Notes under the pieces: generated by a model | What the model saw: only the letters and a program-made list of their open reading frames with translations | Databases searched by the model: none | Told to the model about the DNA's origin: nothing | In this document: positions 176 through 61,050 of the stretch, piece by piece | Layout: each line of letters opens with the position of its first letter | Position numbering within the stretch: position 1 is the first letter of the stretch | Source: Tomocerus qinae | Taxonomy: Eukaryota; Arthropoda; Collembola; Entomobryomorpha; Tomoceridae | Direction of reading: 5' to 3' | Assembly: GCA_020055645.1 (NCBI GenBank) | Contig: CM034547.1 | Coordinates: forward strand, 66,808,884 to 66,872,883 | Length of the DNA: 64,000 bases | Position numbers and translations under genes: made by a program

Positions 176-283
176 ATGCCCTCAGCATCCATTCAGGAAA
201 TTACTGTCAATGAAGGTGGGACTACAAAGAAATACCAAATTCCGCAAGGATTAAAGAAAATTCTAGAAGAGATCTCCCGGGAG
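176..283 (+). CDS. Exon 1: start and first half of the RII-alpha domain
   Basis: ATG at 176 opens 36 codons ending in ISRE, followed by the donor GAG|gtaatg. The frame continues exactly into exon 2 to give SREVLRKQPDN, the RII-alpha signature. The start is chosen because it lies about 20 residues before the IPQGL motif, the usual spacing in this family. Confidence 0.8.
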
Positions 284-3200
284 GTAATGTGGCCGACCTA
301 TAATATTATTACATAAGAAATTCTCATGCTTTAATTAATTTAAAAACCTTTCGCTACGATAAATAGGTACTCAGAAAACAACCTGATAACAGTATTATTT
401 ACGAGTTCATTGCGGATTTTTTGGAGAGAAAACTAAGGAATGAGGTCGATGGCGGAGTCTATTCCACGGCAGATGGAAAAACGGTCACAGTCACACCAAG
501 TGGGACACTTGTCTACTCGGATGGAACACCCGTCCCTCCAGGAACGAAACTTAACTCTTCCACTGGACAACCTGTTATTGTTTCTTCCGCTGGGGCGCCA
601 GTGCCTCAAGCGTCTATTCACGATCATGTAGATAAAGTTCTAAGTAAAGCGTTGGATTTAGTTGACGTCCTGGAGACTCTGGATAACGGAGTACTTGCGT
701 TGGATACCGCAATACAAAATAAACTACAATTGTACACAACAGACGGACAACCGATTAGATACACTGCGAGTGGGCAAATTTTAAATTCTAAAGGAGAAAT
801 TCTTCCCCCGGGGACAAAACTTGTAACAAAGGATGGTAAAGAATTCAGGAAAAACACCCGTGGATCAGTGGACGATGTATCTGGGTTACCAGTTTTCCTG
901 ACAGAAGATGGGCGTTTGGTAACTATGAAAGAGGATGGAACACTCGTAGACTCCAACGGAAAGGCTATTCCCCCAGGAACGAAGATTTTCACTCCGAAAG
1001 GAGAACAGATAGCTGTGAATTCTGCTGGTAGGCCTGTTCCAGTTTCTAAAGATCTTGATCGTTATGCTACAAAAATTCAGGTGAGACTATAGTAGCCGTT
1101 CCCCAAAGAAAAAATAAACATTAAAAAAACTAAAAGAGATGTAAAAGAGATACAAAAACAAAAATGGAGAGTTAATTTTTGTTAATATTTTTCCAGGCTG
1201 CATTTAGAGGTCATTTAGCACGGAAAGGAGGTCGCAATTCAAAAGACGGTAAACTTCCTGAAAAATTGTTCGACCAAAATGGAAAGGAAGTGGTGATCAC
1301 GCCTAGTGGGCACATCTTGGATGCAAATGGTAAACCGATGCCCCCAGGAACCAGATTAAGGACGGCGAGTAACAAGGAAATAACCATCAGCCCTAATGGA
1401 ACAATTTTGCCTTCTGGGACAGCTGGTACAAAGTTGTTTACAGAAGACGGAAGACCAGTGAAAACAACAGCCAGCGGCACCTATGTACTAGAAGACGGAT
1501 CTCCTCTTCCTCCTGGTACGAAAGTGGTCGAGAAGAAAGTGGATGGTCCACTTAAGTTGGATACGGCAATGCAAAATAAACTACAATTATACACAACAGA
1601 CGGACAACCGATTAGGTACACTTCGAGTGGGCAAATTTTAAATTCTAAAGGAGAAATTCTTCCCCCGGGGACAAAACTTGTAACAAAGGATGGTAAAGAA
1701 TTCAGGAAAAACACCCGTGGATCAGTGGACGATGTATCTGGGTTACCAGTTTTCCTGACCGAAGATGGGCGTTTGGTAACTATGAAAGAGGATGGAACAC
1801 TCGTAGACTCCAACGGGAAGGCTATACCCCCAGGAACAAAGCTTTTCACTCCAAAAGGTGAACAGATTTCCGTGAATTCTGCTGGTAGGCCTGTTCCAGT
1901 TTCTAAAGATCTCGACCGTTATGCTACAAAAATTCAGGTTCGAAAGGAAAGCATTCTATCCCACATGGGATAAATTCAGAAATATTAATTTAAAGTTATA
2001 AAAATGTGATTTAGGCATACTATTTTATTTCCAGGCTGCATTTAGAGGTCATTTATCACGAAAAAATAGCCGCTCAAAGGATGGCACAAAAGGTGGGAAA
2101 ACACAGGCAAAGTTGTACGATGAAAATGGGAAGGAAGTGGTGGTAACTTCTAGTGGACACATCCTGGATGCCAATGGAAAGCTGTTGCCTCCAGGGACGA
2201 AGTTAAGAACGGCGAGCAACAAGGAATTAGCAATCAGCCCCAATGGAACAATTTTTCCTTCTCGGAGGTCTGCTACGAAATTGTTTACCGAAGATGGAAG
2301 ACCGGTGAAGACAACAGCTAGTGGTCAGTACGTACTTGAAGATGGATCTCCTCTGCCGCCAGGTACAAAAGTGGTCAAGAGGGGTAGTTCTGGTCAGCCT
2401 GATAGCGAATGGCTGACTAACTACTGGTCAACTCATGACATGCCCACCAGGCGTTCTGTTCCAGGAGATTCCACTCTCAGCGAAATGGCAGATGCTTTGA
2501 ATTATGTTTTATCGGAAGAGGATAGTATGGGGCCCATCGAGGCTTTTATTGCTATGATCCAGAGAGCTATTGAAAGCCTGATGTCAAAACTATCAAATAC
2601 TGAGCCCGGTGGTGACGGCCCAACTGGAGAGGGAGATCAGGCACAAATTGGAATCCCGGCACAGTTCGGAAATGAAACAGGGTCAACTGATAGCGCTACA
2701 ATTGTGCTGGACACCGCAATGCAAAAGAAACTTCAGTTGTATACAGAGGATGGACATCCGATTAAGTACACTCCAAGTGGGCAAATTATGAATTCCAAAG
2801 GACAACTTCTTCCACCAGGGACAAAACTTGTAACAAAGGATGGTCGGGAATTCAGGAGAAATACCAGAGGCTCAGTGTACGATTTAAGCGGAAAACCAGT
2901 TTTTTTAACACAAGATGGACGTTTGGTTGTGGTTGGGGATGATGGGACCCTTAAGGATGCGGATGGAAAGACTATACCTCCTGGGACACAACTTTTCACC
3001 CCCAAAGGAGAACAAATCTTTGTGAATCCTCATGGAAGACCTGTCCCACTCTCCAATGATGCGGACCGTTATGCCACTGTCATTCAGGTTGAAATTAAAA
3101 CCGTTTTTGTAGCACGATAATTTCAAAATAATGAATATTACAAAATATTTACGAACATGGAATTATTGTAGGCTGCATACAGAGGTCATTTGGTACGAAA

Positions 3201-4820
3201 AGGAGGTCGTCTCTCAAAGGAAGAAGATAAGAAAGCTAGTGGAAAGGCGGAGGAACAGGCAGGTTCGTCCAAAAAGCTGTACGATGAAGACGGACGTGAA
3301 GTGATAGTAACTCCAAGTGGACACATTCTAGATGCCTATGGAAAACTGCTACCACCAGGAACGAAATTAAGAACAGCGAGCAACAAGGAATTAGCTATCA
3401 GCCCTAATGGAACAATTTACCCTTCGCGTAGATCTATTTCGAAAATTTATACGAGTGATGGAAGGCCAGTGAAAGCTACGGACAGCGGTCACTACGTATT
3501 GGAGGACGGGTCTCCACTCCCACCTGGAACAAAAGTAAAAATCTCTGGAAGTAGAGATATGATAGTATCACCTCATGGTGGTTTGGAAGAGGATCGTCCC
3601 CAAGTCCCACAAGAAAGAAGAAGGTCGGGAAGGATGTTTACAGAAGACGGTCTGGAAATTGAAGCATCCCCGAGTGGGCGTGTATTAACATTGAGTGGGA
3701 ATGTGGCGCCAGAGGATACTAAAATAAAAACTATCGACCTGAGGAAAATTATTTCTGGGGAGGGGTCTTTCCCTGAAACAAATCTTTTCACGGAAAGTGG
3801 AATCCCGGTTGTGGTCACTTCCAGTGGACGAGTTTTTACAGTCGAGGGAAGAGAATTATTCCCAGGAGAGATTTTGCGGACGTCGGATAACAGAATAATG
3901 ACAGTCTCACCGTCGGGAGGTATAGTCCTTCGACCAACGACGAGCGTCCCTGTGACATCAAGTCTAGAACAGACTCCGAGTGGTCGCAAAGTTGAAGCGA
4001 CACAGAGTGGAGGAGCCTTGACTCCAAGTGGCAGGGCCTTGAACAGTACAGCTAGTTCTACTTCCCGCCCTCAATCCAGTGGGTCGTCAAAAGGGCTTAC
4101 CCGAAAAATGTATACCGAGGACGGCGAAGAGGTTTGGATGGATGCAAATGGGATGATCGTGACAAAGGACGGTGTAGAAATTCCAGCCAGCATGTTTGTT
4201 TCAACAGCCAGTGGGAAGTTAGTGGACAGAACAGCGTCGGGTCGAGCGGAACTACCTGCTGGCGGAGCAAGAGCTCCCGGAGGTGAGTCTGGAGGTCCTG
4301 GAAGTGGTGGCACTGGTGTAAGAGCAGATGACGATATTCTCTCTCAACCTGCAGCTGTGGTCGCAGAAATGGCGCGAAGAAATACGGATGAGGGATGGCT
4401 TTCGGAAGAACAGGCTGACCCAGAGGGAACTATGGTTGAATGGGCTTCAACCGTCGATGAATTTATGACAGGCCAAATCTCGACTATCGAAGGGGTTGGT
4501 AAAATATCCTAATTTATTTTTTACTATTTTATATTCAAATTATTTATGCTATTTAAAATTTACAGTTGCTGAACGGAAATATACCATTGAGTCAGGCTCG
4601 GGGGACAATTGTCTTTTTGACAGTTTCTTTCGTAGTGGGTTTGGTAATAGGTTACGGAATTGCTCGCTCTCTGGGACTAATCGGTCCTCCTCGTAATGCA
4701 CACGCAAATGTCAGAACTAGTCTAGGGAATCTGCATGAAATTGGGGGAGTGATTGGACCGGACGGTCGGGAACTTCGTCACGGGGTTGATGCAGGAGTTG
4801 GGAGATGCGTCAACAAGTAA
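176..4820 (+). CDS. RII-alpha domain, IQ-motif and PPGTKL-repeat protein (6 exons, spliced)
   Basis: Spliced model: 176-283, 367-1080, 1197-1937, 2035-3087, 3172-4494, 4566-4820; every intron is phase 0 and the product is about 1397 residues. Seen: residues 20-62 match an RII-alpha dimerisation/docking domain (IPQGLKKILEEISREVLRKQ followed by PDNSIIYEF). Three IQ motifs (IQAAFRGHLARK at 273, IQAAFRGHLSRK at 520, IQAAYRGHLVRK at 871) separate arrays of a repeat of about 30-45 residues with the pattern LFTxDGxPVxxTxSGxxLxxxGxxLPPGTKL; 13 canonical PPGT cores and two decayed ones. A hydrophobic run near 1326-1346 could be a membrane helix. Family knowledge: RII-alpha plus IQ occurs in SPA17-like sperm/ciliary proteins, which bind AKAP helices and calmodulin. 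Inferred: a flagellar or ciliary scaffold. The repeats are not a family I recognise. The last splice is the weakest part of the model. Confidence 0.8.
367..1080 (+). CDS. Exon 2: rest of RII-alpha domain and three PPGT repeats
   Basis: Acceptor aaatag|GTACTC, donor TTCAG|gtgaga, 238 codons. The first 24 residues finish the RII-alpha domain; then come repeats ending VPPGTKL, LPPGTKL and IPPGTKI. The exon ends YATKIQ, supplying the IQ dipeptide of the first IQ motif. Its 3' half is nearly identical in DNA to that of exon 3. Confidence 0.85.
1197..1937 (+). CDS. Exon 3: IQ core and four PPGT repeats
   Basis: Acceptor ttccag|GCTGCA, 247 codons. It opens AAFRGHLARKGGR, completing the first IQ motif, carries PPGTRL, PPGTKV, PPGTKL and PPGTKL cores, and ends YATKIQ. 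The donor is weak (CAG|gttcga); read-through would stop at 1973 after 11 further codons, a possible short isoform. Confidence 0.82.
2035..3087 (+). CDS. Exon 4: IQ core, PPGT repeats and an acidic spacer
   Basis: Acceptor ttccag|GCTGCA, 351 codons. It opens AAFRGHLSRK, has two repeats, a non-repetitive insert at about 2380-2700 (MADALNYVLSEEDSMG, possibly helical), two further repeats, and ends with IQ. The donor CAG|gttgaa is weak, like that of exon 3; read-through would stop at 3120. Confidence 0.82.
3172..4494 (+). CDS. Exon 5: IQ core, canonical and decayed repeats, Gly/Ser-rich linker
   Basis: Acceptor ttgtag|GCTGCA, 441 codons. It opens AAYRGHLVRK. Two canonical PPGT repeats are followed by decayed ones (APEDTKI, FPGEIL), then a Ser/Gly-rich linker and an acidic stretch. 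The end is uncertain: GGG|gttggt keeps phase 0 and joins a long frame in exon 6; GTTG|gtaaaa is a better donor but shifts frame. Read-through would stop at 4512. Confidence 0.7.
4566..4820 (+). CDS. Exon 6: possible transmembrane C-terminus
   Basis: Acceptor tacag|TTGCTG. In phase 0 it encodes 84 residues with a hydrophobic segment (VFLTVSFVVGLVIGYGIA) and a tail containing a decayed repeat motif (GPDGRELRHG), then TAA at 4818-4820. The phase-1 alternative gives a 43-residue hydrophilic tail stopping at 4696. Phase 0 is preferred because every other intron is phase 0 and the tail resembles the repeats. Confidence 0.6.
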   Translation: MLNGNIPLSQARGTIVFLTVSFVVGLVIGYGIARSLGLIGPPRNAHANVRTSLGNLHEIGGVIGPDGRELRHGVDAGVGRCVNK

Positions 4821-4954
4821 ACTACTAATTGATTGATGATTTTTTGAATGAGAATGCACGGACGATAATAATTACTAATATGATTTTCCAAATTGTTTGT
4901 ATATGTGTAATTTTAATAAGACGATGAGTGTAAATTATGCTTTCCTGTATCAAA

Positions 4955-4960
4955 AATAAA
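4955..4960 (+). promoter_or_regulatory. Polyadenylation signal AATAAA
   Basis: Canonical hexamer 135 bp after the stop codon at 4820, in an AT-rich stretch; the likely 3' end of the RII-alpha/IQ transcript. Confidence 0.6.
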
Positions 4961-7900
4961 ATATGTTTACACTTATTACATAACAAGTATGCGGGAGAAT
5001 AAATGTGGCCATGAGTGCAAATGAATAGAGAAAGAGAGATTCATGATAAAACTGAGCTTCATTCATATCAGTCCAAGTAAATTCAATTCAATCCAAAAAA
5101 CAAGAGAACCAAAGGAGACAATTGAGAAAAGAAACTTTCACTCGCGAGTCTCTCCTGACTTTCCCTCGACGTTCATTTAACCCCCAGAGTACGTATTCGT
5201 TATCATAATAATTAATTATAATAATTCATCAATCGATTATTAATAGAAGTTATAATAATAGTAGTAACAATGTAATGTAATGAAATGCAATGTAATGTAT
5301 AGTTAACGTTACGTAACTCATCTATTAATTAGTCTACACCATTGTAATGTAATCATCATACTTCACCGTACAATTACAACAAGTCCGTAATTCTTACAAG
5401 TAACGTCACGTTCACGTCAAATTCTCCGTTCATATATCCACTATACAAATGCAGCGCAGCAGTACAATTTCTAGCTATATATAGCTACATCTTATATAAC
5501 AAGACAAATACAATAGACAGACAGACAGATTTAGGTAGAGAGTATACAATAGAGAATAGAATACAAATTACGATGCAGTAACAGCAGAATTCACTAATAT
5601 ATTTACAATATTTTAACAGTATATCTTATCGTTCCATTTTATCTCGATCATCGCCATTATAGTATTATCTAGTCACGTTTTCCTCCTTTCAATTTTGCTA
5701 ATTTACAATACATAATACGCAGTTACGCACTATTCCCTATAGATTAGTTAATTAGTATGACTTATTTTTACAGTTAGGAGGATTCTCCCTTTCTCCAACG
5801 TCGTCTCGTCGCGATTTCGTTATCTTCTTTATCATTTAATTTACGTCTAATACAATACAGATAGGTAGATTAATTTAGGTAGTAGGTACTTGTTTTAAAG
5901 CCATCAGCTATCAACATCAATCAATTTACGTTCTCCCAAACCTCTCAATTTTCAGTCGTTTTACTCCACTGTCTACTTTCCCAAATTCACTACAGACAGT
6001 AATTTTCAAAATCAGTCCTATGGCCATCTTGCCCCTACGAAAACTCAACCAGATATGAAATTCCAATTCAATCTTTCATTTTCACTATGATATTTTCAGG
6101 GAGGACATCCAGAACTTAACACAATTTCATCCCCATCCAATCCAAAACAAACCGAGGAGAAACTACACTACTTTCTCTACGAGAAAGCAAGCTTTCTCCC
6201 ATAAAAGTGCTCTAATTCCATTTTTGCATTACAATTCTGAATGAGGAATTTATGTTTTAAAGACTGCATGCAATGAATTGGAATGGGGATGGTGGGTGTG
6301 ACACTCGCGCAAGGAGGCGTATCTTACTTAAATGAATTAGCTAACAATTACTTATTGCTTTGCCTTACGTATTGCTCCGTCCGAAGACCTTATACGACCT
6401 ACTTAGACACACATTAGGGTAAATGAGTGTGAAGAAAAAGAAAAAACAACAGATTATGTCAATTCACTGCTGTTGAATGTATTATTGGGATTGTGTAGAG
6501 AATTAGTGTGCATAGTAGTGCCTGTTTACGTATTATTGGTAGTAGCTATTAGTTTAGTGTTAGTTAGTATGTACGGTAATGTAATTATGTAGCTACGTAA
6601 TTAAGAATTACAGTAGCAGCAGTCCCATCTTATTCATTTCCATGATGGTCAGTCAGTGAAAAATCAAGGAGCCAGTCCAGTAACAGTTAGCTTACAATTA
6701 CAATCAGTCACAGTCCTATTATCATCCAACTGAATTACTTTCACCTCCCTTCACCTCCACCCACGCATTTACAGGAGTAGTAGTAGGAGACACATTTAAG
6801 ATCCATCATCAACCATTTCAACTGAGGGTATATAAAACAATCATAAATTACGTAAGCAGAACTGATAATCAATTACACAGTACTTGGACATTTGTACATA
6901 CACATCACTAATCCATATAGTTGTCTAACAATTGAATTGCGAGTACAAATATCGCTTACGATCAACGACGAATCTTCTGCGTCCCACCTCGTCTACTCCA
7001 CCTATTTAAATTACTACTATACGACACGCTACAATAATAATATACGAAACGAGCGAGCGATTACTTATGCAGCGAACGTACAAAAAAGAACACCATAACA
7101 TTTCAAAGGAACGACCAACTGTTTTCATCTTTGATTTCCATTCAATCTAATCCAATTCCATTCTCCATGGAATGCAAATGAATCGCCATTGGATTTAGAA
7201 ATTAGTTTTACTGAGACGACGAATGGTTTGCGTCAAAGATAGGATCTTCTGAATTGTAGTAAATTATTTTCACGTCTCACTGATACTATTTATAACAACA
7301 CAACATCATAAAGATCACTTAGCATTTAAATAGACACGGAAACATCTATTCAGCTTCTTTTCTCACAATAATTATTACACCATGCATCGTAAACTTAATT
7401 TTATGACTCGATAGTATATTTAACGTCAGATTATTTTAAGAGTACCTATTCCTACTTATAATACTTAGCAGCTAATATCGTTAAAGGTATATAGCCTACC
7501 ATCATGAGGTATCTAATTCATTTTAATAAGAAATAGGACAGGTGGGTGTGGGGCAGGTGTAACACTCTCATTTAAGAAACGAAAGCTTAATTAGCTGATT
7601 AATTATGAGTGGTTAAATTGTTAGTAGCAGCTCCTCACACTTTGTGACAGTACATTTAATTCTCGTCACATCAGTCGGTAATAAAAGGTGAATAATAATG
7701 AAGGAGGGGGTGGGGTGGCTCGAGGAGAAAGTCTGTCTTGTCACCAAAAGTCTTGTCTTGACTTGTCTCAAAAATCTGTCGTAACAAAAATCGCAGACAT
7801 TAATAATAAATCCTAGTTGCTACAGAACGTACATAAAATAATTTATAGTTAACTTTACATGAGATACGAAATCGACACACAAACAGTCAGATCCCTTCCA

Positions 7901-10088
7901 GGAATCAAAAACTGAATGCTGAGTCTTTTGCTGCTAGGTATATGAACCTAATAATGATTGATACTATATAATACGTATTTACTCCAACTGAACATAATCT
8001 ACCCTACTTCACTAAATACAGTATATGCATAATATAATTTATAATAATAAAACAGGGTGTAATAAGCATAGAAAGTTGTGGTAAGTCACTTCACTACATA
8101 TTATTATCCTCTTTAATAATAACAATAATAATCACTACAAAAACAAAACAAATGACACACAAGCTCAAAAATTCACATAAGATACCAAATATGAAATCAT
8201 AATTTCACTTTTCTACATCAAAAAAGCTACTCATTCTATACTAATGTAAGTATACTAACTACTTCTTTTCAAGTTTCATAAAATATTTACTGACAGTTTT
8301 TCTCAATTGCTTTCCCTGCTCCAATCCCAGAGGACAACGGACAAACATCCATGCTTTACAATTCTAATACAGACAGGTAAGTGTAAAATAGGTTACAAAA
8401 ATCCAAATTGCAAACACTTTCATCCTCCAAGATTTATGAAACTCAGATGTAGCAATAAACGATAATTATCTCAACAATTAAAAGAGACATGCAAAAAACT
8501 ACAATTGTGTGAAAGCTATCACTTGAATACGAAAAAAGACACTTACAACTACGCTGAATTACGTAGCCATTTCAAAAGTGCGTAACCCAACACGCCTACA
8601 CAGAACACGTACGTATATTAGAATATTACAACATATATTTTATAGGTTAATAGTGCCTATCATAACTCGAACACGAAATCAAGATCAATATAGTAAAAAA
8701 CACAAAATAAATGCCCATCGTTTCAGTTTTCATTCCACGTTCAAGTCAAGTAGTATCAAGGAGAGAACAGTGACAATTGACAATCTGTGAACAGATATAT
8801 TCGCGGATGTCTGATCTGCAATCAATCATTATAGCGATTACATAATAATTTTATTGAAGCCCAGCAAACAACTGATATCTGATATGCCCAAGTACAACTT
8901 TACATTTTTATAAAATGGTAGCTTTAACGTTAGTTGCAAACCAGATAACATCGCTATGGTCAATTGCATTCTTGTCTTACAAGTTCTTTTTTATGTACAG
9001 AAAAGGAATCGTGTACACTAACTCTTATATTTTCAATTCAATTCTCCTCTTCTGAGAGTATTAACTTGACCTGACTCTACGATTACCTATGTGATTAATA
9101 AAAAATGTAGCAAACTTTATAAAATGAATTCACCAGCCTCAACTCATTCGTACAGACAATGAATAGGAATACAGGTAAGAAAACTTAAAATGTCGCTATA
9201 AATGCATCCAGAAAAAAATTTCTGACTCTCATCTCCATCCTGTGGTATTGATTGGTGACTGTCATTGTTTAAATTGTCATTCATGGTGCCTACATTTAAA
9301 ATACAAGCTGAGTTCGAAACAAGACAACACTTTTGATTGTGACTTGATTGTGTTCGGGTAGAAGTAGAAAGTAGAAGGGAAAAGTTTTCCTGTTGTTGGA
9401 AACTCTCACAACACTCTAACGTAGGTTGATAAGCTTTGGTACAGATATAAACCCCATCAAATCATGCCTGAACTAACACCTGCTACCTTGTCTCGCTATC
9501 TCTCTGCCAAAAACTAGCTATAGATGTGTTTTAAAGTTTTAAAAAAGTTGGGATTAAACAACAAATAAGTCTAAGAAATCCCGTAGTTAGATACCAATTA
9601 ATTTGTATAAGATGAGAACATGGCACTGCTATCGTTATAATAAACAATTAATTAATTAGAGCACTGTTGATCTAGCGGAGACTGTCCAGGTGCAATGAGC
9701 GCACGCGGTGTAAAAAGGGAAGCACGAGAACGTCAGTAAGTGACATGAAAAGATGTGTCTACAGGGTTATCATTAAAAATTATAAGAGTCGACTTTCTCT
9801 CACTGAACTTTCTTTTGGGTTCCTATTAATATAGTGTTATATAAAGTTACGTAGACATTACAGTACGGAGTACACAGAGCTGGAGTACTCAGCTGGAGAC
9901 AGCTTTCTATCTTATCTACTGACTGTTGCCCTACGTGTTCTAATCAGCACAACAAACATTTGACAATTTCGACTCATATCATTATAATCATCATCTTAGT
10001 TAGTTTATCTCTATTATAATGCAGATAGATAGAGTTAGTTACACAGCACACGTAAGTAAAGTCTACGTAGCTAGACTACATCATCATA

Positions 10089-10476: not shown

Positions 10477-50325
<39,849 letters not shown>

Positions 50326-57617: not shown

Positions 57618-58689
57618 AAAACCTACAGCAAGCCGTAACAGAAGCTCGCCTGAGTAAAGAGGACCGTGTGCACATTTTTGATAGAATAATAGTGTAAAAG
57701 ATACGTTAACAGATAATTATTAATGTTGGCCATCAAAATCAACAGAAAATCAAAGTAGATTAATGTTGACTATCAAAATCAACAGAAAATCAAAATAGAT
57801 TAATAATAACTATCAAAATTAAAAGGAAATGAAAATCGGTTATAGTTGCTTTACTATGAAATCTAAAGTCCGTTAGAAGCGGTATGAAATATTTTATACT
57901 ATCATGGTAACAATTTATAGGAAACGCAATTGAAATTTTTAATGCCCATTTTCTACTTTTACTATCAAAATTAAGACAAAGTGAGCGAGCGGTATCTTGG
58001 TAACCAGTAGACCAATGTGGCCTATTTTCAATAGGGGTTGTCAGTGGTCTATAGGCATTGTTTTCGTTAAGTTTGGTCAAAATCTATTAATGCGTTCGAA
58101 AGTTATCGTGTTCACTAACGGACGAACGGACGGACGGACTGTGCGATCCTATAAGCTGCCTTATTCAGGCGAGCTAAAAGCTCAATACTCTAAATCTTGT
58201 CAGTCCATTGCTTCCATTTATTTTGATACTCAATATTATTAAATTTTGATTTTTTGTTTATTTTGATACTCAATAAGGCAGCTTATAGAACCACACAGTC
58301 TGTCCGTACGTCCATCCCCACGATAACTTTCGAAAGAAATGACGGATATTGACCAAAATTTGTTAAAAACAATTCCTATGGGCCACTAACGATCCTTATT
58401 GAATTTGGGGTAAATCTGCTGGTTGGTTGCTGAGATACCGCGCGCTCACATTTTCTTCATTTTGATAGTCAAAGTGAAAATTTCACATTTAATGGACATT
58501 ATAAATTTCAATGTAGTTTCCTATAAATTGTTAGCCCGATTATAAAATATAAAATATTTTAATCCGCTTCTGCCAAATTTGAAATTTTATAATAAAGCAA
58601 ATTAAACCGGAAAATAACTGTAAGACAATGGAAATAAATCTATTTTGGATTTTTATTCGATCTTATAGTCAAATTTCCATTTTTCGATT

Positions 58690-59072
58690 TCCTTTTAATT
58701 TTGATAGTCATTGTTAACCGATTTTAATTTTCTGTAGATTTTAATACTCATAATCAATCAAGATTGAAGATCTGTAGATTTTCGTAGTCAACATTAATCA
58801 ATTTTGATTTGCTGTTGATTTTCATAGTCAACATTAATCAATTTTGATTTTCTGTTGATTTTCGTAGTCAACATTATTCAATTTTGGTTTTCTGTTGATT
58901 TTCATAGTCAGCATTAATCAATTTTGTTTTCTGTTGATTTTCATAGTTCTACATTATTCAATTTTGATTTCCTGTTGATTACGATAATCGATATCAATCA
59001 ATTTTGATTTGCTGTTGATTTTCATAGTCAACATTAATCAATTTTGATTTTCTGTTGATTTTCGTAGTCAAC
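58690..59072 (+). repeat. 40-bp minisatellite, first plus-oriented block
   Basis: About nine diverged units of GTTGATTTTCATAGTCAACA followed by TTAATCAATTTTGATTTTCT. The inverse orientation appears at about 57720-57835. Confidence 0.85.
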
Positions 59073-59339
59073 AGTTGCTGAGATACCGCGAGTTTACTTT
59101 GTCTTCATTTGATAGTCAAAGGGAAAAATGGGCATTAAAAATTGCAATAGCGTTTCATATAAATTGTAATAATGATAGTATAAAATATATCATGCCGCTT
59201 CTACTAAAACTGAAATTATATAGCAATATAACAAAAACTGAAAAATAACTTCAAAAGTAAAATAACGAATCTGTTTCAAGTTTGTCTTGATTTTAATAGT
59301 CAATATTAGTAATATATTTTCATTATGTATTAACTTTAA

Positions 59340-59620
59340 TAGTCAACATTAATCAATACTGCTTTACGGTTGATTTTGATAATCAACACCAATCTATTTT
59401 GATTTGCTGTTGATTTTGATAGTCAACATCAATCTATTTTTATTTGCTGTTGATTTTGATAGTCAACATCAATCTATTTTGATTTGCTGTTGATTTTGAT
59501 AGTCAACATCAATCTATTTTGATTTGCTGTTGATTTTGATAGTCAACATCAATCTATTTTGATTTGCTGTTGATTTTGATAGTCAACATCAATCTATTTT
59601 GATTTGCTGCTGGTTTTAAA
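59340..59620 (+). repeat. 40-bp minisatellite, homogeneous block
   Basis: About six consecutive, almost identical 40-bp units (GTTGATTTTGATAGTCAACA plus TCAATCTATTTTGATTTGCT). Each has TGTTGA/TCAACA inverted arms. More uniform than the neighbouring blocks, so recently amplified. Confidence 0.9.
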
Positions 59621-61050
59621 TTATGAATTATATTAATCTAGTTTGAATTAGTGCTTACTTTAATATTAAAAATAAATTTATTTCTATTATTATTACAACC
59701 AAAATGTGCACACGGTCTTCTTTACTCAGGAGAGCTTCTGTTACGGCTTGCTGTAGGTTTTAGCTCGTCTGACGAGCTTATAGAACCGCACAGTCTGTCT
59801 TTCCGTTCGTCCGTACCCACGATAACTTTCGAACTCAATGACGGAAGTTGACCAAACTTGCCATAAACAATGCCTATGGACCACTGACGATCCCTATTGA
59901 TTTTGGGGCTAATCGGTCCATTGGTTGCTGAGATACCGCGCGCTCACTTTGTCTTCATTTTGATAGTCAAAGTGAAAAATGGGCATTAAAAAGTTCAATT
60001 GCGTTTCCTATAAATTGTTAGCGGGATAGTATAAAATATTCCACTCCGCTTCTACCGAATTTAAGATTTTATAGTAAAAGCAAATAAAACCCGAAAGTAA
60101 CTATAAGAGGACCGAAATAAATCTATTTCGCATTTATATTCAATTTTATAGTCAAACTTGCATTATTCCAATTTCTATTGATTTTCATTATTAATATTGA
60201 CCGATTTTGATTCTCTTTAGATTTTCATAGTCAACATTATTCAATTTTAATTTAATGTTGATTTTCATAGTCAAAATTATTCAATTTTGAATTTATGTTG
60301 ATTTTTATGGTCAACAATTATCAATTTTGAATTTATGTTTATTTTCATAGTCAATATTAATCAATTTTAGCTCGCCTCTGAATAAGGCAGCTTATAGAAT
60401 CGCACAGTCTGTCTGTCCCCGTACCCACGATAACTTTCGAATGCAATGACGGATGTTAATTAAACTTGGTAAAAACCATACCTATGGGCTGGTGACGATC
60501 TCTATTGATTTTCGGGCAAATCGCTCCATTAGTTGCTGAGATGCCGTGCGCTCACATTGTCTTCATTTTGATAGTCAAAGTGAAAAATGGGCAATAAAAA
60601 GTTAAATTGCGCTTCCTATAAATTGTTAGAATGATAGTATAAAATATTTCACTCCGTTTCTACCAAATTTATTTTGAATTTATGTTTCATCGATTTTGAT
60701 TTTGTATTGATTTTGATAGTAAAGATTAATCAAATTTGATTTACTGTTGATTTTGATATTCAACATTAATCAATTTTGATTTTCTGTTGATTTTCATAGT
60801 CAACAGTTATCTATTTTGATTTTCTGTTGATTTTTCAAATGATATAGTTTCGTTTCCTTATAATATCAATGTCTGAATTTTTAATATGTCGTAGCTACAT
60901 ATATAAAGACTCAATTCTGAAAGCTTGATCAAAATCCATACGTTCGGTTTTGTGTTACGTGCGACTTTTCCTCTACCAAAATGTGTACACGGTAACCTTT
61001 ACTCAGGCGAGCTTCTGTTACGGCTTGCTGTAGGTTTTCATTATGTATTA

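Follow-up and report, generated by a model that had tools for sequence, protein, structure and literature searches.

A six-exon gene of Tomocerus qinae predicts a long RIIa, IQ and PPGT-repeat protein related in plan to SPA17

Results

A six-exon gene at the start of the window

The DNA analysed here, called the window, is a 64-kb stretch of the genome of the collembolan Tomocerus qinae (GCA_020055645.1, contig CM034547.1; C2:66808884-66872883 in the genome searched, which comprises 334 Mb in 115 contigs). At its start, at 176-4820 on the forward strand, lies a six-exon gene with a predicted product of 1397 amino acids, which combines an RIIa docking domain, three IQ motifs, an array of repeats marked by the motif PPGT and a predicted C-terminal transmembrane helix. 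The original prediction, made from the letters of this DNA, had proposed a protein of about 1400 residues at this position, in agreement with this model. The predicted splicing was read from the sequence: all six exons are multiples of three and are joined in phase 0 throughout, and weak donors (GTTCGA, GTTGAA and GTTGGT) are found at several junctions. A coding score trained on exons 1-5, with window positions 4830-9000 as background, gave 0.37-0.59 bits/codon in frame and -0.20 to 0.14 off frame for exons 1-5, values that describe the training set itself.

Exon 1 (176-283), closed by a GTAATG donor, carries the start codon and the first half of the RIIa dimerisation/docking (D/D) domain, to which the Pfam RIIa match applies. 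The second half (to about 438) is found in exon 2 (367-1080), followed by PPGT units 1-3 (motifs at 535, 805 and 970) and the first two residues of IQ1. Exon 3 (1197-1937) contains the remainder of IQ1, units 4-7 (1341, 1509, 1662 and 1827) and the first two residues of IQ2, and thus equals one complete IQ-to-IQ super-repeat. Exon 4 (2035-3087) continues with the remainder of IQ2, units 8-11 (2188, 2356, 2812 and 2977) and the first two residues of IQ3, and holds an insert without PPGT at about 2389-2706. The remainder of IQ3, units 12-13 (3352 and 3520) and a low-complexity Gly/Ser stretch make up exon 5 (3172-4494), and exon 6 (4566-4820) encodes the predicted transmembrane helix (about 4605-4664) and a 51-residue C-terminal tail.

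RIIa domain, IQ motifs and kinship with SPA17

The N-terminal RII-alpha domain that had been proposed was recovered when residues 1-76 were scanned alone, with RIIa (PF02197) matching residues 24-55 at 25.6 bits for a cut-off of 22.4. Likewise, three IQ stretches (PF00612, E 1.2e-17, at residues 273, 520 and 871) were found in the full-length Pfam scan, the same number as originally claimed. All three have the form IQxxxRGxxxR and none matches a longer IQ pattern with a hydrophobic residue three places later; each is interrupted by an intron between IQ and AA[FY]RGH.

Among solved structures, the best matches of the window protein were Sp17 chains, at both the RIIa domain and the IQ motif (whole-sequence E 3.4e-08), and the RIIa stretch scored 18.7 bits with Sp17 versus 11.5 with the best PKA-RII chain. 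Sp17 is a fibrous-sheath protein with an RIIa and a calmodulin-binding domain, as passages of PMC11276731 describe it. SPA17/Sp17, which belongs to the R2D2 clade of the D/D superfamily, shares with the window protein an N-terminal RIIa domain followed by an IQ motif that reads IQAAFRGH. On the other hand, its chains of 147-151 amino acids carry a C-terminal IQ motif, whereas the window protein has 1397 residues, three internal IQ motifs, 13 PPGT motifs, a predicted membrane helix and a two-residue insertion in the RIIa loop. Because one hallmark of the clade that was tested is departed from, as detailed below, and because the size and the extra parts differ, the window protein is not filed as an SPA17 orthologue; it probably works in an SPA17-like way.

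Other proteins show a comparable combination. CABYR is a flagellar protein with an RIIa domain and calcium-linked parts; we know of no PPGT repeat or membrane helix in it or in RSP7/RSP11. By their description in parts of PMC8339350, RSP7/RSP11 also carry RIIa and calcium-linked parts in flagella.

A short paralogue and other RIIa loci in the genome

A PPGT-repeat paralogue was found on the contig of the window gene, at a distance of 61 Mb (C2:5807900-5809179; L010 3901-5180), and no other PPGT-repeat gene was seen among the matches listed in the genome, in which counts are lower bounds. Its five exons predict a protein of 321 amino acids with, in order, RIIa (32.8 bits), repeat, one IQ motif (22.6 bits) and repeat, and it shares with the window gene both the intron in RIIa (between E and VLR) and the intron inside the IQ motif (between IQ and AA). 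It differs from the window protein in having one IQ motif, far fewer units, an intact PDNI loop and an acidic C-terminus, and its modelled frame lacks a membrane helix. Its best solved chains are again Sp17 (4e-08; PKA-RII 2.1e-04). The comparison with SPA17 made originally is therefore upheld, Sp17 being the best solved relative of the window protein at RIIa and IQ and the short paralogue keeping the RIIa-plus-one-IQ plan. The accompanying statement that the layout was not a known one is fair in that it is unrecognised, but the layout amplifies a plan that at least one other gene of the genome follows.

RIIa-like places in the genome numbered 11 at E<=10, five of them over the cut-off, and by eye they include PKA-R-like genes. 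This search reads exons singly, such that the intron-split window RIIa was not listed, the paralogue was represented by a half scoring 20.9, and other split genes may escape. A third RIIa locus, at C4:17.13 Mb (L022 1588-9310, forward strand), has no intron at the RIIa position used by the window gene and its paralogue, and is accompanied by two IQ-bearing stretches and a long open reading frame (ORF) of SRPxSAK repeats. The RIIa exon, the IQ exons and this ORF may form one gene, a candidate third RIIa-plus-IQ gene.

The PPGT array is constrained and still changing

Exactly 13 PPGT motifs were counted, as had been claimed; 2000 shuffles of the protein averaged 0.067 and never exceeded 2. The two decayed repeats originally reported fall short of what is seen by eye, since at least three candidates occur in exon 5: PEDT at about residue 1052, FPGE at about 1102 and IPAS at about 1209 (near window positions 3709, 3859 and 4183). 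Seven of the 12 spacings between adjacent motifs are 51-56 residues, three are 85-97, each with an IQ motif, and the remaining two are 90 and 152.

The array is built as an internal super-repeat in three copies, in which the pre-IQ blocks (C1-C3) are mutually alike, as are the post-IQ blocks (N1-N3). Identity between C1 and C2 reaches 97% at the protein level and 95.5% at the DNA level, which on the letters is a young duplication or conversion, and the other five block pairs are 73-78% identical in protein. Ratios of non-synonymous to synonymous substitution (dN/dS) were low in all six pairs (about 0.09, 0.16, 0.13, 0.15, 0.14 and 0.19), those of five pairs being only rough at a synonymous divergence (dS) of 0.9-1.4. 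Introns 2-4 show no clear mutual likeness. The low dN/dS in all pairs together with the near-identity of C1 and C2 thus suggest that the array is constrained at the protein level yet still changing.

An ordinary SPA17-type adaptor, with repeats that are a passive, recently grown spacer without a function of their own, would also produce an array still in flux such as C1/C2 indicates, and would fit a paralogue that has one IQ motif and far fewer units. The other five pairs speak against such a spacer, as they have kept their protein identity with low dN/dS at dS of about 0.9-1.4, and we consider it unlikely. The layout of the window protein is real, constrained, unusual and derived from a known plan.

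Fold and family of the repeat

AlphaFold modelled a two-unit segment (11 rows) mainly as short beta strands, with a mean local confidence (pLDDT) of 80.0 and a predicted template modelling (TM) score of 0.65, and glycines stand 6-9 residues apart in C1 and C2. Foldseek returned no match at E<=0.001 in the PDB (two models) or among viral models (one model); the weak matches, all with E > 0.001, were to CPAP/TCP10, MORN, glucan- and choline-binding repeats and propellers. In the listed PDB rows for one repeat model, query TM-scores did not exceed 0.27, thus leaving the overall shape of the repeat unsettled, and an 11-unit profile run against PDB sequences gave a best E of 0.056. The repeat resembles the CPAP/SAS-4 TCP10 G-box and MORN in its predicted strands with Gly turns and in these weak structural matches, but differs from them in the lack of a sequence family match. 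MORN was absent among 17 Pfam families at E up to 10, in a search that filters out the majority of matches with E higher than about 0.1, and Tcp10_C (G-box) gave a weak match in one of 11 units (E 0.058), which does not place the repeat in that family. Searches of viral and prokaryotic collections (a 234-residue query, one scan each) yielded 21 and 221 stretches fitting the pattern, none of them confirmed as a relative.

The original prediction had named two outcomes that would speak against it, a Pfam family of known function covering the repeat and the lack of an RII-alpha match, and neither was cleanly observed. RIIa is present, and in the two-unit pieces for which scores are shown every family stayed below its cut-off, but two families passed over the whole protein. 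PapC_C (PF13953) scored 48.5 (cut-off 27) over about half of its model by summed weak partial matches, with 24.7, 17.7 and 14.8 in pieces, all below 27, and E<=0.1 in seven of 11 units, bits being shown for one only. Similarly, FlgE/F/G D1 (PF22692) reached 37.9 (cut-off 27) with no single stretch passing and with 14.9, 21.1 and 21.2 in pieces. These usher (PapC) and flagellar-hook (FlgE D1) matches are tentatively read as a generic resemblance among predicted Gly-turn beta structures.

The C-terminal membrane exon

In the exon 6 frame, a 19-residue window reaches its maximum mean hydropathy of 2.39 at residue 1328, in agreement with a predicted transmembrane helix. A search of the genome with exon 6 at E<=10 gave one match, itself. 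Two donors compete at the last junction, GTTGGT at 4495 and GTAAAA at 4499. Since the first is weak and the second would give a protein of 1357 amino acids without the helix, the model could be mis-joined, with a membrane exon taken from another frame or gene and a protein that is in fact soluble. This appears very improbable: the frame reached from 4495 scores 0.43 bits/codon (up to 4695) and that reached from 4499 scores 0.00, and a possible polyadenylation signal AATAAA is located at 4955-4960, 135 nt past the stop codon of exon 6. The predicted helix changes the picture of the window protein from the possible PKA-linked ruler of sperm or cilia first suggested to a putative anchored tether.

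Other features of the window and its neighbourhood

About 5.5 kb upstream of the window gene is a SAXO1-2 (axonemal microtubule) ORF (L009 3692-4417, forward strand) with a Pfam score of 32.9 for a cut-off of 26.5, and between the two lies a glycosyltransferase-92-like ORF scoring 20.9, under the cut-off of 23. Downstream, exons of a kinase gene that is DYRK1A/minibrain-like by eye occupy 10477-48560 on the reverse strand, a protein kinase domain being supported by Pfam at 16599-16973. A tandem repeat at 21816-23110 consists of 26.4 copies of a 49-bp unit with 98% matches, and this unit contains an inverted AGTGCGAGTT...AACTCGCACT. An inverted repeat with arms of 268 nt at 26072-26339 and 26949-27216 (98% complementary, 609 nt apart) is possibly a foldback element, and several 40-bp repeat arrays with similar units, apparently in both orientations, are located at 57719-60834.

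Discussion

We favour, at a probability of about 0.42, the reading that the window protein is a relative of SPA17 enlarged by internal amplification and anchored in a membrane, where it would sense calcium and tether a docked scaffold to that membrane. In this proposal, the RIIa head would dimerise with itself or with another D/D protein and receive an amphipathic helix from a partner of the AKAP type, the axoneme or sperm tail being the likeliest site. A long beta-strand rod built from the PPGT units would hold the three IQ helices, with calmodulin bound, at defined positions, so that Ca2+/calmodulin might stiffen, relax or mark this rod, and the C-terminal helix would keep the opposite end in the membrane. 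The behaviour of related domains is consistent with such a head: according to sections of PMC8339350, D/D domains form dimers to which amphipathic helices dock, and that of SPA17 bound AKAP18 weakly alone (9.6 µM) and at 82 nM together with ROPN1L, while parts of PMC11779644 describe ciliary proteins docked onto radial-spoke helices by RIIa domains. The further possibility of a calcium-tunable strut from membrane to axoneme or scaffold, with the D/D head on an AKAP helix, calmodulin-loaded IQ joints, beta rods and the membrane helix, is regarded as quite unlikely. No D/D protein combining these parts is known to us, and no such layout appeared among the papers listed in literature searches, which is no proof of absence.

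Several observations weigh against the proposed tether. In the full-length Pfam scan, RIIa scores 19.8 bits, under the cut-off of 22.4. The loop between RIIa helices I and II carries two additional residues (QPDN-SI-IYEF, compared with QPDNIYEF in the paralogue); the R2D2 hallmark, given in portions of PMC8339350 as Pxx[LIV] in this loop, is not strictly present, PDNS being followed by I (PDNSII), and is found intact as PDNI in the paralogue. Because of these two extra residues and the altered hallmark, docking by the window RIIa may differ or be altered. An internal AKAP-type amphipathic helix, sought with a sequence pattern, was rejected for want of an excess over shuffles (one match, 1.16 expected). 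The AlphaFold model of exon 3 (247 amino acids, 8 rows) has a pLDDT of 61.8, and the SAXO1-2 neighbour, although in agreement with a ciliary setting, is weak evidence for it. Finally, the RIIa stretch of the paralogue taken alone scores 24.3 bits with Sp17 (9fqr), 24.2 with PKA-RII-alpha (2kyg) and 20.4 with the zebrafish SPA17 D/D (7my4), so that the lead of Sp17 for the paralogue is due to the IQ motif and not to RIIa alone.

This tie slightly lowers the odds of the tether and slightly raises those of a non-ciliary role. In such a role, the window protein would store calmodulin or scaffold signalling in the manner of neurogranin/GAP-43 or Drosophila igloo, and its RIIa domain would bind AKAPs at the cell membrane. 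The IQ cores and the predicted membrane helix would suit a calmodulin reservoir at the membrane, and the IQ exons near the third RIIa locus (IQAGFRG) have the same look. The window RIIa itself argues the other way, being nearer by the scores above to Sp17, a sperm-tail protein according to PMC11276731, than to PKA-RII. We regard such a store as somewhat unlikely.

Taken together, the window gene is consistent with a small docking protein grown into a long repeat protein through duplication of an exon-bounded unit, the short form persisting in the same genome, and it brings to description a predicted beta repeat whose scored pieces fall below the cut-off of every Pfam family. If the favoured interpretation as a membrane-anchored tether is true, the protein would offer a direct handle on the calcium control of the link between flagellar or ciliary scaffold and membrane.

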